Below, piece after piece: positions 9,008 to 14,324 of a DNA stretch of 20,236 nt. Source of the stretch: a virus; IMG/VR virus record IMGVR_UViG_3300006916_000532, positions 1 through 20,236 of that record; one strand, given 5' to 3'. Position numbers and translations under genes: made by a program. The notes beneath the pieces are model-generated. The model saw only the letters and a list, made by a program, of their open reading frames with translations, searched no databases and was not told the origin of the DNA. Position 1 is the stretch's first letter; each line of letters opens with the position of its first letter.

Positions 9008-9466
9008 TTATTTTCTAAAATTAGTTTTTGCGAGTTCAATTAAAAGATTGGTGATCTCGTCGTTTACGTTTTTTATTACGTCTCGCGATCGAGATGCGTA
9101 TATTCTGTAGAAGCTTATTCTTTTGTGGCCTGGTATCTGTTTTGCGGGACGTGCAAAGAAGATCGCGTACCACGCTTTCCTTTTGGGCAAAACCTTACGC
9201 CCGTATACGCCCTTTCTTTTGCCTTTGATCTTACGGTTACCCATAGGATCGTCAAAGTTGCCTTTCCTGCGCTGAAGCCTAGCTCCTTTACTGTACAAAG
9301 TGCCCCCTTTAAAGACGTTCTGCCATGGCCTTACAGCCCTAGCAAGAGCCTTGTCAAATTTTTGCTCTGCCTTAGAGGTGCCGACGCTTCGCCCATAGCG
9401 CTTCAAAGCTCTCTCAAGCTTCTTCATCTCGGTCCTAGGTATTTCGAGTCTAATTGGGCTAGGCAT
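9008..9466 (-). CDS. HK97 gp10-like tail completion/neck protein (152 aa)
   Basis: This is a strongly basic protein with many Arg and Lys residues (KIKGKRKGVYGRK, KRKAWYAIFFA), beginning with helices around IPRTEMKKLERALKRYG. Size, charge and position between the head-closure gene and the major tail protein fit the gp10-like family, which helps cap the tail and join it to the head. The ATG at 9466 shares one base with the stop of the preceding gene (TGATG); a GTG one codon earlier at 9469 is also possible but less likely. The gene ends 6 bases before the major tail protein ATG. Function comes from family resemblance and gene order. Confidence 0.72.
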   Translation of the reverse strand: MPSPIRLEIPRTEMKKLERALKRYGRSVGTSKAEQKFDKALARAVRPWQNVFKGGTLYSKGARLQRRKGNFDDPMGNRKIKGKRKGVYGRKVLPKRKAWYAIFFARPAKQIPGHKRISFYRIYASRSRDVIKNVNDEITNLLIELAKTNFRK

Positions 9467-11034
9467 CACTTCGCTATTTTGTAATACAGCTCTTTGCCAA
9501 GCCTACTACCCAAACCGTTAGGGTTGTGACTTGGGCCTGGGCCTAAGTTGATTACTATCTTTAGTGTAGCACCAACCCAAGCAGGCTCGTCTAGGACTTG
9601 CTCAAAAGATTGAGTGTCTCCATTGAAATACTTAGGTGTTTCAATACCAGGAGGTCCGCTATCTGGCACGTCGTCTGTAAACAAAGAAGTAATAGTCTCC
9701 TCATCAGACGTCTCTAGAACCTCCTCTCCGCTAGGTAAAATAACAGAAGCGCTCTCTACGCTAAGAACATATATACCTTCACTTGAAAACGAATTTCCAC
9801 CTGTACTTTCAAACTTGGCATTACCAGTCTCTGGTTGCTTGGCACTGCCCGCTCCTAAAAGATCATTTAGGTTCGACATTCTGTAGACACCAAGTCTCTC
9901 ACCTTCCTGTCTAAAGCAGTGGCTCGTAACGTCAGAAGGGAAGCTTACGCTGTGGTTTCGAAACCTAATTTTAGCGGAGTATTCGTATGAAACCTCTCCA
10001 CCATCCGTTTTGGTTACAGAGTTCTCGGCGTCGCGAGAGTTTAGTCCGTCTATGTACTCGCTAACGGCAGTAATCGGCGTAAGCTTGTAATACAGCCTCC
10101 CCATGCTGATACCGTAAGGCAGGTGCCACCACCCCGAATCGTTGTTGCCCCAACTAGTGGTGTCTAGTTTATACGTTTTGAACCCATCAGAGTTCAAATG
10201 TGTCGGCTCGGTCTCGTCAGCTGGAATTAACACAAATGTGTTAGGCGAGCTTTCTACAACTAGCTCCCCAGAGTCCAAGACAATCTTAGCTTCAGGGCTT
10301 GAGTTGTTTGGAACCAGGTCATACCAACGAGATGTGTAGCTTCGAATGTACTCGTCTGGGGGAACGCCCGCTGGCTCAGACAAAGCTGTCTTGTAAATGA
10401 ACTTGTCTTCGTTCATGATTAAGACGTCTGAAACAGTTGTTGGGTCTACAACATCAACCTCTTGAGTTACTGTGTTGTACTCTCGTCTTAATCCGATGTC
10501 AAAAGCAAATCCGTCGTCTTCGCCCGTTATGATGTCATTAGGCCCGCTTCCCGTGCTCCTTACAAGTAAGTCGCCACGTTCAGGAAACGGGCTATTGCTT
10601 ACTACCACGTAGTCAACCGTTGGATTTCTGTAGTGAGAATCTGCGTGAGTGATGAACGGGTACTCTTGATCAGGCAAGCCCAAAAAAGTATCGTCGTCTC
10701 GTAGCTCGGCACGAATTTTCAATACCTCGTGGCGACCCTCGTACTGGATAGAGTAGATGCGGAACTTCCCGCCCTCAAAAAAGATTACATCCTCGAACTT
10801 AACGCCCTTAAAATAGCGGCAGCGAATCTCGGCCTTAATCTTACCTGTTCGCTGTTCTTGGATGCGTTCTTCCGAGGCACCAGCAGACGGGGTGCCGATG
10901 TACTTAAACTCAGCACCCACATCTCGCTTCAGCAAAGAGACGGTCTTTACCTTTTCTCCCGCGTCATTGACGACCAAAGATTCCCTGTAGAAGGAAATCT
11001 TGTTCTTCATAGCTCCCGGAGTCAATACTGCCAT
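9466..11034 (-). CDS. Head-closure (SPP1 gp16-like) protein fused to a ~400-aa extension
   Basis: Residues 1-118 look like a phage head-tail joining (stopper) protein: the opening MKNKISFYRESLVVNDAGE, the core GAEFKYIGTPSAGASEERIQEQ, and the strand FRIYSIQYEGRHEVLKIRAEL. Such proteins are normally ~100-120 aa and plug the portal-connector channel. Here the frame continues without break for a further ~404 residues. The extension is rich in Ser, Asp, Thr and Tyr, contains WWHLPYGISMGRLYYKL and SFPSDVTSHCFRQEGERLG, and ends LYYKIAK. I do not recognise it; its composition suggests an exposed beta-rich domain. The ATG overlaps the connector TAA by one base. The stopper assignment is fairly secure; the role of the extension is unknown (neck fibre or whisker is one guess). 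Confidence 0.75.
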   Translation of the reverse strand: MAVLTPGAMKNKISFYRESLVVNDAGEKVKTVSLLKRDVGAEFKYIGTPSAGASEERIQEQRTGKIKAEIRCRYFKGVKFEDVIFFEGGKFRIYSIQYEGRHEVLKIRAELRDDDTFLGLPDQEYPFITHADSHYRNPTVDYVVVSNSPFPERGDLLVRSTGSGPNDIITGEDDGFAFDIGLRREYNTVTQEVDVVDPTTVSDVLIMNEDKFIYKTALSEPAGVPPDEYIRSYTSRWYDLVPNNSSPEAKIVLDSGELVVESSPNTFVLIPADETEPTHLNSDGFKTYKLDTTSWGNNDSGWWHLPYGISMGRLYYKLTPITAVSEYIDGLNSRDAENSVTKTDGGEVSYEYSAKIRFRNHSVSFPSDVTSHCFRQEGERLGVYRMSNLNDLLGAGSAKQPETGNAKFESTGGNSFSSEGIYVLSVESASVILPSGEEVLETSDEETITSLFTDDVPDSGPPGIETPKYFNGDTQSFEQVLDEPAWVGATLKIVINLGPGPSHNPNGLGSRLGKELYYKIAK

Positions 11035-11736: not shown

Positions 11737-12834
11737 TTATACAGTGAATCCGTCGAATCCGTTGTAGTTGAGGATTTCAACGTCACGGTATACGTTAGCG
11801 ATGATTCGCGTAACACCGTGGTCTGCATCGGTGTAAGGGTCAATGATGAGGTTTATTCCGCCCCACGTGCCAGTCACGACTTGCTCCTTGTCGAACATGA
11901 AGAAGTCATCACCGTTGTTGCCCATCTGAGAAGAAACGTATGTCTCGTATCCCAATACGTTGCGACGATCAGCAGCAGCAGCGCTTGCGAACAACATACC
12001 AGAACCAGCGTCTTGGCTCAAAGAGCGCAGCTTTCGGTAAGCAGTAGGTCCAGCCAAAGCAACTACGTTCTCCAATGGAACGTCGCGTCCCATCAATGCA
12101 GCCTCCAAGTCGAGAGGGTTCATAGTCTCGGCGTCATATCCATCCAAAGTACCAGGAGTTCCCTGGTTCAACAAAACACCTGTAGTAGCACTACCCAAGA
12201 TAGCGGCGATGATGTCAGCGTTGAACTTCTTAGCAACTGCGTCACGGATGTCCTTTGCGAGGAAAGCGCCCATGTCGTCAGCAGACTGCGCCAACATCTG
12301 GTCAGTAACCTGTGTGTGAGCAGCGTAACGAACTGGGTTCAGCGTGCGAGAAGAGAACGAAGTGTTGTTGACAGCCTGGTTGTCAGCTTCGTTTGGCTTA
12401 CCAGCAGTGGCAGGGGTGCCCTGTACCTGGAACACAACGTCACCGCTCAAGTTGCCCAAGTTGCGAACACCCATCTGAGCAGCGATGTCGGTTGGCTTAA
12501 ACGCCTCAACGATACCGTTGTCAACCTTTCCGATTGTACCTCCAAATGCTGCGGAGTCGAGTCCACCACTACCGCTGTTATCAACAGTACCAGTACCGAG
12601 AGCAGCACGCTGTGCGACGAAGGAAGGGATGCAAATGCCGCCCGCAACATTCACCTTTGCGTTCTGGAACTCGTTACGAGCCTCCTGGTTCATTTCAGCT
12701 TCGAGACCGCTCAACTTGCCCTGAGCAGCTTCTTTAATCATTTTGCCAAAGCTAAATGTCTTGGCAGCGCGAGCCTCTGTATCGCCGAGGCCCTGAACGA
12801 GTGCCGGAGCACTATTCTTGTTTTGCTTTTCCAT
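11737..12834 (-). other. Possible internal start giving free major capsid protein (365 aa)
   Basis: An in-frame ATG (Met288 of the fusion) is followed by EKQNKNSAPALVQ, a typical capsid N-terminus. The 27 bases before it are extremely A-rich (AATAAATCACAAAACAAAAA on the minus strand), like the leader of the protease ATG at 13695 and unlike the surrounding coding sequence. The stretch looks like a former intergenic leader that has become coding (residues reading HNKSQNKNST). The free product would be the usual size for an HK97-type capsid subunit with a short N-terminal extension. Initiation here is inferred, not proven. Confidence 0.5.
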
Positions 12835-13695
12835 AGTGGAATTTTTGTTTTGTGATTTATTATGTCGAGCCTCGGTTGGCTCAGTATTGTACGCTTGTGA
12901 GTAAGGGTGAGGCAAAATAGCTGGGTCAATCAGTTCGTCTACCCGCTCTTCTTGTTCCTCTTCCTCCTCTTCTTCTTTTTCTTCTTCGTCCTCATCCTCT
13001 TCCATGCGCTCCTCTTCTTCCTCTTCTTCCTCTTCTTCCTCTTCTTCCATGCGCTCCTCTTCTTCTTCCTCTTCCTCGTCTTCGTAATGACCAGGACGCT
13101 CTTCGGGCTTCTCCTCGTCTTCCTCGTCCATGTAGCCTTTTTCCTCTTCCTCTTCTTCGAGCTTACGCAACTCTTCTTCTACCTCTTTGTCAAGGAACGC
13201 TTCCATAGAACGCAAACCCACTTCTGTGGTTGGGTATGCACCCTGCGTTGTTGGAGAAACATCAAACAAAGTTTCTACCTCGTTGATAACCCGCAAGTTC
13301 ACACCGTCCTCGCGACGCTCCCACGAGTCGTCAGAGATGGTGAAACCGAAGCTGGAGGTGGACACATTGCCCATGCGAATGTTTTCGGCCAAATCCTTAG
13401 CGTAGGATTGGTTACCCAGCTCGAATCGGTACTTGAGACCCTTGTCATCGACGTCCAGTTCCAAGCCGCGACCAACACGGGCCAATGGCATATTCCAGTC
13501 GTGGTTGAACAAGGCGACAGTATTAGACATGTCGGCTTTGTCAAACGCACCACGAGCAATACGCTCGGCAAACCTTCCGCCAATAACGGTCTCGTCCTCG
13601 AAACGCGCCGCGTAACCCTCGACCACGATGTTGCCGTCCTTCTCAGAACGTACCTCGAAGTCGGCGCTAAGTGACCGCTTTTCTAGATTTTCCAT
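11737..13695 (-). CDS. Prohead protease - poly-Glu linker - HK97 major capsid protein fusion (652 aa)
   Basis: Three parts are visible. Residues 1-~165 are a U35/S78-type prohead protease with NHD (His65 in ALFNHDWNMP), the serine of VSTSSFGF (Ser114 or 115), and ETLFDVSPTTQGAYPTT, which together supply the expected catalytic elements. Residues 171-256 are an acidic linker with 54 Glu in 86 residues. From Met288 on is an HK97-fold major capsid protein: NVAGGICIPS, VRYAAHTQVTDQMLAQS, FNADIIAAILGS, GYETYVSSQM and a C-terminus ending NYNGFDGFTV. In HK97 the protease, scaffold (delta domain) and capsid are separate or partly fused; here one frame spans all. The protease likely cuts the capsid N-terminus after assembly. 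The linker may act as the scaffold. A possible internal start (12834) could also give free capsid protein. The terminator downstream fits heavy expression. Confidence 0.93.
   Translation of the reverse strand: MENLEKRSLSADFEVRSEKDGNIVVEGYAARFEDETVIGGRFAERIARGAFDKADMSNTVALFNHDWNMPLARVGRGLELDVDDKGLKYRFELGNQSYAKDLAENIRMGNVSTSSFGFTISDDSWERREDGVNLRVINEVETLFDVSPTTQGAYPTTEVGLRSMEAFLDKEVEEELRKLEEEEEEKGYMDEEDEEKPEERPGHYEDEEEEEEEERMEEEEEEEEEEEEERMEEDEDEEEKEEEEEEEQEERVDELIDPAILPHPYSQAYNTEPTEARHNKSQNKNSTMEKQNKNSAPALVQGLGDTEARAAKTFSFGKMIKEAAQGKLSGLEAEMNQEARNEFQNAKVNVAGGICIPSFVAQRAALGTGTVDNSGSGGLDSAAFGGTIGKVDNGIVEAFKPTDIAAQMGVRNLGNLSGDVVFQVQGTPATAGKPNEADNQAVNNTSFSSRTLNPVRYAAHTQVTDQMLAQSADDMGAFLAKDIRDAVAKKFNADIIAAILGSATTGVLLNQGTPGTLDGYDAETMNPLDLEAALMGRDVPLENVVALAGPTAYRKLRSLSQDAGSGMLFASAAAADRRNVLGYETYVSSQMGNNGDDFFMFDKEQVVTGTWGGINLIIDPYTDADHGVTRIIANVYRDVEILNYNGFDGFTV
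12928..13185 (-). repeat. GAA/GAG-rich low-complexity tract encoding the poly-Glu linker
   Basis: The minus strand is nearly pure purine over long stretches. Within it, positions 12964-13053 form two 45-base units of 15 codons, each beginning CGC ATG GAA (Arg-Met-Glu, at residues 215 and 230), so the tract has grown by tandem duplication. Such tracts can slip during replication, so length may vary between relatives. Confidence 0.85.
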
Positions 13696-13703
13696 TATTG
13701 GTT

Positions 13704-14324
13704 TTATTTTGATGATAATTTATGACCCTTCGGGAAGAGATCAGTGTCGTGTTTACCGCTGCGAAACTTCTCATTCTTCAGCGCGTAAAGATAGCTGTTT
13801 ACACGAGCAAACGCCCACTGCTGTGGAGACTTTACACTAGGCCGTACAGAACCGGGGTTGGTTTTGTATGCACCAATCCCTCGGTTGTACACCTTCTGCA
13901 AAGTTGCCTGTGTAGTTTTCTTTTTAGAATCGCTAACAGATTCGTTGTGATCCTCAGCTTTCTTCTTGAGCGTAGGCCCGACACCCTTGTCCTCAGCTCT
14001 GCTTTCTTTTTCAGCCTTATTGATGGTACGCTCACACCAACCCTTCATACTGTCGCCACCCCAGGCAGCGTACATGATAGAGCCGCAGATATCCTTACCC
14101 TTGTCGTCAGTGAACTTACCTTGATCGTAAGTCTTAGCACGAGACAGAAACGAGAAGGTACGCTTAATTGTTGACAGCGTCAAACTTTGACCTGTAGACA
14201 ACTGCCGAGCACGAGTCCAGCCCACGCTGGTCCCGCAGCTCGTACCCTTCTCTTCCTTGTGCTTCAGGGCAGCTTTGGCGCGGTTCTTGGCCGCTTGTGG
14301 ATATCCGCCGTAAGTCTTAGCCAT
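13704..14324 (-). CDS. Conserved phage protein with DUF5824-like C-terminus (206 aa)
   Basis: A basic protein with two recognisable blocks. Residues ~28-105 carry TSCGTSVGWTRARQLSTGQ, then TIKRTFSFLSRAKTYDQGK and CGSIMYAAWGGDSMKGW, a pattern I know from phage proteins near protease and capsid genes. After a Lys/Glu linker, residues ~140-190 read LQKVYNRGIGAYKTNPGSV and QQWAFARVNSYLYAL, resembling DUF5824. Neither block has a defined biochemical role that I can name. The gene sits between portal and protease, overlaps the 69-aa gene by 8 bases and ends 8 bases before the protease ATG, so a role in head assembly or maturation is plausible but only inferred from position. No catalytic residues are assigned. 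Confidence 0.62.
   Translation of the reverse strand: MAKTYGGYPQAAKNRAKAALKHKEEKGTSCGTSVGWTRARQLSTGQSLTLSTIKRTFSFLSRAKTYDQGKFTDDKGKDICGSIMYAAWGGDSMKGWCERTINKAEKESRAEDKGVGPTLKKKAEDHNESVSDSKKKTTQATLQKVYNRGIGAYKTNPGSVRPSVKSPQQWAFARVNSYLYALKNEKFRSGKHDTDLFPKGHKLSSK

Follow-up and report, generated by a model that had tools for sequence, protein, structure and literature searches.

Sequence evidence for a putative capsid gene nested within a fused protease-acidic linker-capsid frame of a virus

Whether a single open frame that runs from a prohead protease through a highly acidic linker into a capsid protein yields one protein or two is the question raised by this locus. The frame was examined in a window constituting an entire IMG/VR virus record (20,236 bp). 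An earlier note had read it as one 652-residue frame joining a prohead protease, an acidic linker and an HK97-type capsid protein; Pfam and translation bore this out and placed the frame on the minus strand. Its surroundings are those of an ordinary head-tail module, with the small and large terminases, the portal and a DUF5824-containing gene ahead of the fused ORF, and head-tail connectors, tail tube, tape measure and tail fibre beyond it. A 522-aa gene (9466-11034, minus strand) matched Phage_HCP (head completion protein) in its first 110 residues only, the other 400 residues lying outside the match. The fused ORF, its parts and its upstream neighbour are as follows.

11737..13695, minus strand: ORF of protease, acidic linker and capsid, 652 aa in a single frame (open-reading-frame list, Pfam)
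13195..13662, minus strand: Peptidase_S78 prohead protease domain, aa 12-167 (Pfam E 4.6e-42; family alignment)
12835..13185, minus strand: linker, aa 171-287, hyperacidic over 171-256, then DPAILPHPYSQ, EPTEAR and an N/K/S/Q-rich stretch
11737..12834, minus strand: predicted capsid from an internal start, 365 aa, without delta domain (Phage_capsid and HK97-fold matches)
13704..14324, minus strand: upstream gene with DUF5824 at its C-terminal end, separate in the window

The first domain belongs to peptidase family S78 (PF04586), having both a profile match and a conserved His and Ser (i.e. His65 and Ser114/Ser115) that are invariant in the family alignment. The second matched Phage_capsid (PF05065) at aa 392-647 (E 6e-19), and Foldseek assigned it to the HK97 fold through matches to HK97 and other phage capsids, the best being 8gta (E 1.4e-13). 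The AlphaFold model of the fusion (mean pLDDT 63) supports the predicted capsid fold; helices modelled in the linker were of low to moderate confidence and carry no weight as evidence.

The relatives, a family of marine phages, are metagenomic and related among themselves; they were collected by two scans of viral contigs. The first, using the whole protein as query, gave 79 distinct relatives, and the second, using a profile built from the capsid alone and thus unable to see the protease, gave 381 encoding stretches from which 80 loci were kept. In both scans, the protease lay in the frame of the capsid wherever enough upstream sequence existed. The fusion, with both domains uninterrupted, was kept at 131 loci (a count that includes some overlapping cuts of one contig) with 67 distinct junctions, and every two-domain relative was in frame across the junction. 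Two loci, L033 and L035, look split; their frame breaks fall within the capsid or the protease and their junctions are in frame. A sequencing error is therefore excluded, and a frameshift or assembly error was likewise ruled out as the origin of the fusion because the junction frame is open in all relatives. The stop that a sequencing error might have hidden between residues 256 and 288, raised as a caution in the earlier note, is absent. A second caution, that relatives might lack the linker and keep the two genes apart, held in part: distant relatives are split, but close relatives are all fused. The closest annotated or deposited separate-gene relatives, Cellulophaga phage phi39:1 (capsid identity 27.5%) and the faecal contig MT835917, are distant. 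Heads of the phi39:1 type resemble the window in placing an HK97-fold capsid beside a prohead protease in identical order, but have separate genes, a delta domain on the capsid and no acidic linker, the opposite of the window on each point. In the distant relatives L093/L094, the genes are fused, the linker is moderately acidic and a delta-like domain follows the ATG. In L037-L042, L093/L094, L105, L109, L110 and L083, the upstream DUF5824 gene shares one frame with the protease, which suggests a joint role of its product with the protease or capsid in assembling the head.

The linker has a net charge of approximately -51 in the window. Its hyperacidic segment of 86 residues (aa 171-256) contains exactly 54 Glu, as had been counted previously, and Glu makes up 6% of the protein outside this segment. 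With a net charge of -15 or lower taken as acidic, 62 of the 67 distinct junctions had an acidic linker, although its sequence and length varied widely; the long linkers of the first relative set comprised 69-143 residues with a median net charge of -40. Linker sequence was fluid, with uninterrupted Glu runs, repeats of the VEEPVAEVVEE type and modules that are gained and lost (i.e. DSDYDGVKD in 13, RPGHY in 11, CxC in 19 and ILPHPY-like in 35 of the 62 distinct acidic linkers). The DSDYDGVKD-type module (DSDYDGVKDEDE; L006, L026, L031, L068 and L090) resembles a calcium-binding D-x-D-x-D-G loop.

This fluidity could mean that repeats expanded neutrally in a linker that tolerates them, with the poly-Glu run having no function of its own. 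Consistent with such expansion, the window holds tandem repeats (12946-13083), and the near-identical L047 and L048 are six Glu apart, showing that runs expand and contract while acidity stays. L037-L042 also manage without an acidic run after the protease, their protease-capsid spacer being 21-27 residues and non-acidic. In these loci, however, the frame additionally takes in the upstream gene, and an acidic stretch lies on the other side of the protease. Acidity otherwise persists through quite different linker sequences, and the Glu codons of the run are mixed (GAA/GAG 31/25), all of which makes neutral expansion distinctly unlikely. The constraint looks like one on charge near the protease and not on exact sequence. 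The Glu-rich coding run (12835-13185, minus strand) also contains 21 overlapping pentamers resembling Shine-Dalgarno (SD) sites (AGGAG, GGAGG and GAGGA), some of which precede ATGs. Bacteroidota ribosomes largely ignore SD-like sites; in an SD-using host these pentamers could be false starts.

At the boundary between linker and capsid, an in-frame ATG was present in 131 of 131 fused loci. It is preceded in the window by two further elements.

12832..12834, minus strand: conserved in-frame ATG, codon 288, predicted internal capsid start (start-context score, conservation)
12835..12866, minus strand: A-rich, G-poor leader, a predicted region of translation initiation without an SD (start matrix, synonymous-site test)
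12867..12882, minus strand: hairpin GAGCC-AACCGA-GGCTC within the coding sequence, 32 nt 5' of the internal ATG

Start contexts were scored with a matrix whose training set comprised 355 further gene starts of the contigs that carry the fusion, the fused ORF being left out. These training starts showed no SD peak and were enriched in A around -14 to -10, a profile matching that published for Flavobacterium johnsoniae. The junction ATG of the window scored 4.2, above 99.85% of 2,058 internal Met codons, and ranked second of 19 in-frame ATGs behind the ORF's own start (5.8). Median scores were 4.7 for 39 distinct junctions, 2.9 for training starts and -3.7 for internal Mets, with weak junction contexts in L013 and L036. 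A occupied position -3 of the junction ATG in 76%, and G was absent beside the ATG. In Flavobacterium johnsoniae, A at -3, -6, -12 and -13 promotes initiation (PMC6847099), and the A-rich, G-poor context of the junction ATG looks like that of Bacteroidota starts. From the style of the start sites alone, a Bacteroidota-like host would be inferred; a prophage search of genome contigs for the host found no relative of the fusion, and a TerL search gave only a 29% match, in Pseudoalteromonas.

Synonymous sites before the junction ATG avoided G. Within the preceding eight codons, Lys was encoded by AAA 22 times and never by AAG (67% elsewhere in the ORF), Gln favoured CAA by 19 to 0, and 0 of 64 Ser codons contained G. 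Upstream of the ATG, G occurred 50 times as compared to 112 expected for the same amino acids, with 0 of 5,000 simulations as low, these counts coming from related sequences and so not being independent events. In a sliding G test of 45 representatives, the two lowest windows of the ORF touched the junction ATG (z -11.3) and the next lowest had z -6.1 (sd 2.3 for windows elsewhere). Amino-acid choice by itself would not explain the G-poor leader. The leader (12835-12866, minus strand) also contains TAATAA in another frame just 5' of the internal ATG, which may be what is left of a pre-fusion stop or simply a by-product of Asn codons.

The hairpin (GAGCC-loop-GGCTC) is built by the codons of an E-P-(T)-E-A-R motif and usually ends 14-32 nt before the ATG. 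In 1.15 Mb of loci, with overlapping loci counted repeatedly, 109 of 111 occurrences of the pattern lay at the junction. The first Glu codon of the motif was GAG in 54 of 55 cases and the Ala codon, where present, GCT in 55 of 55, with approximately half expected for each. Stems of at least 5 pairs were found in 32 of 42 distinct regions as compared to 8.5 expected (maximum 16) under synonymous codon resampling. Pairing was kept in variant forms, namely GAGCT-GGA-AGCTC (L109), GAGTC with GGCTC (L019, L115 and L025), CGAG-GAAA-CTCG (the L054 lineage) and GGTGC-CGTTC-GCACC, which is encoded with an unrelated peptide (L036/L111). Covariation of the predicted hairpin is present but limited; in a MAFFT alignment, a gap falls inside the stem. 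No hairpin was found in L037-L042, and an Rfam search of the hairpin found no match. A longer stem pairing the E-A-R codons with QGLGD codons, as predicted in the window, was dropped since only part of the family shows it. No terminator was seen at the junction on the coding strand, where the hairpin runs into A and not T, and a promoter scan was uninformative, with three sigma-70-like matches as compared to 1.6 expected. The near fixation of the EPEAR codons, together with the different peptides that underlie the hairpins of other lineages, weakened the case for EPEAR as a cleavage motif acting purely at protein level.

Judged on sequence, selection has acted on the nucleotides of the junction to keep both a start signal and a hairpin, and the ORF carries the internal start signal of a nested in-frame pair. 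A nested gene, in which one ORF gives both a capsid-only product and a protease-linker-capsid product, is the favoured reading (probability about 0.78), and an account of the ORF as one protein is probably incomplete. The same elements could also form an RNA-processing or stability site, with capsid being translated from a processed, capsid-only mRNA: a hairpin conserved at nucleotide level could shield a 5' end, and the A-rich stretch is likely single-stranded. Against this, the start-like pattern (i.e. the frequent A at -3 and the lack of G adjacent to the ATG) points to initiation itself. Processing is an unlikely explanation, and is a variant of the two-product model rather than its opposite.

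Fused protease-capsid genes of other phages provide a comparison. That such fusions are known, as the earlier note had stated, is confirmed by Arthrobacter phages (clusters AM, AU and AN) and Rhodococcus phage RRH1, where they were termed unusual (Klyczek et al. 2017, PMC5513430). These fusions are like the window family in having protease and capsid in one ORF with a candidate start at the capsid boundary; they differ in that their sequences are not close and their starts are of SD type instead of SD-less. Candidate internal starts with SD sites were located at codon 165 of Circum (AAGGAG) and codon 274 of RRH1 (AAGGA), with weaker sites at codon 160 of Maggie and codon 241 of Gordon, and in Lactobacillus phage SA-C12 a TTG right after the protease region is preceded by a strong SD. 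In Circum, a scaffold-like segment follows the internal start and would be on every subunit, whereas the acidic linker of the window family precedes the start. In Roseobacter phages CRP-821, CRP-406 and CRP-811, one ORF spans an upstream domain, the protease and the capsid, S78 being confirmed by Pfam in CRP-821 and CRP-406. Each has an ATG at the start of the capsid precursor with AAGGAG or GGAGG 6-8 nt upstream. Like the window ORF, they have a protease-capsid fusion and a candidate internal start where the capsid begins; they have no poly-Glu linker, an SD-type start and the upstream domain inside the ORF, and the window differs in each respect. These ORFs (L083, L084 and L154, respectively) are annotated as 'major capsid protein' only, and the CRP-phage paper (PMC12629253) does not mention a fusion or protease. 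In the CRP-811 ORF, a further internal ATG at codon 112, between upstream domain and protease, is also served by a good SD (AAGGAG), and ORFs of the CRP type may hold more than one hidden start. Good SD sites were rare at other in-frame ATGs of the SD-type fused ORFs. In several lineages, the capsid boundary is thus marked by a start signal of the type in local use. That SD-using phages carry an SD at this place also speaks against RNA processing.

HK97-type delta domains are coiled coils of approximately 70-100 residues at the N-terminus of the capsid precursor. Only approximately 24 residues separate the junction Met from the conserved FSFGK segment in the window family, which has no such domain; the equivalent interval is roughly 85-95 residues in phi39:1 and L094, and the capsid genes of phi39:1 and MT835917 open with a coiled-coil, delta-like region of approximately 70 aa. 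The missing delta domain leaves room for a scaffold role elsewhere, and would fit a pure polyprotein in which every capsid subunit carries protease and linker and the linker is a built-in scaffold removed by the protease. The single open frame in all close relatives is also as a polyprotein would have it, and its cleavage could take place at the conserved E-A-R motif that lies between linker and capsid. A polyprotein, however, leaves unexplained the invariant ATG, the synonymous avoidance of G, the hairpin and the SD sites at the equivalent boundary in other phages. It also implies one protease per capsid subunit, as compared to approximately 55 protease copies per prohead in T4 (PMC9958956), and is very unlikely. 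The built-in scaffold proposed in the earlier note survives in part: the fusion and its acidic linker are real and conserved, but a scaffold on every subunit is unlikely since a conserved internal start after the linker implies many capsid subunits without it. What the sequence shows of such a scaffold is its acidic make-up and where it lies.

Under the nested-gene reading, translation from 13695 would give the protease-acidic linker-capsid protein and initiation at codon 288 (12834), marked by the hairpin and the A-rich, G-poor leader and not by an SD, would give a protein that consists of the capsid part only. Most of the shell would be built from such capsid-only subunits, with fewer copies of the fusion. 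As the long-form start is strong in the window (5.8 versus 4.2), translation need not yield mainly the capsid-only form. Copies of the fusion would co-assemble via their capsid part, carrying protease and acidic spacer into the prohead, where the protease would act. The linker would serve there as an interior tether or minor scaffold and later be cut away; its candidate roles are those of a flexible tether, an internal scaffold on a minority of subunits and a spacer of charge.

Nested genes of this kind have precedents in head assembly. In lambda C/Nu3, a long protease product and a short in-frame product share their C-terminal part; the lambda scaffold-protease fusion is cited in PMC5513430. 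Herpesvirus UL26/UL26.5 (PMC2949831) likewise pairs a long protease-bearing product with a short in-frame product having a common C-terminal part. The working logic is like that proposed for the window gene, with no membership by sequence being claimed; the shared part is a scaffold in both systems, whereas it would be the capsid protein itself in the window gene.

Protease-capsid fusion is thus already known, whilst no report was found of the hidden start, the hairpin or the acidic linker: a literature search for an internal capsid start, a hairpin or a poly-Glu linker in fused genes found none, an absence that is not proof. A broader proposal, held tentatively and at somewhat less than even odds, is that fused protease-capsid genes are generally nested, with a hidden capsid start fitted to the initiation mode of the host. 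In the window family, this start would take the form of an SD-less hairpin and A-rich leader, and the hyperacidic spacer would be present only on protease-bearing subunits as a minority scaffold. Hidden starts would then be predicted in other genes labelled 'major capsid protein' or 'capsid and protease fusion'. If true, the nested gene would explain how fused-gene phages can produce more capsid than protease, and how the protease is placed inside the shell by a tether to a capsid subunit. It would also provide a natural case of SD-less internal translation initiation, in which the part of the hairpin can be tested, and a way into the role of very acidic spacers in head assembly.
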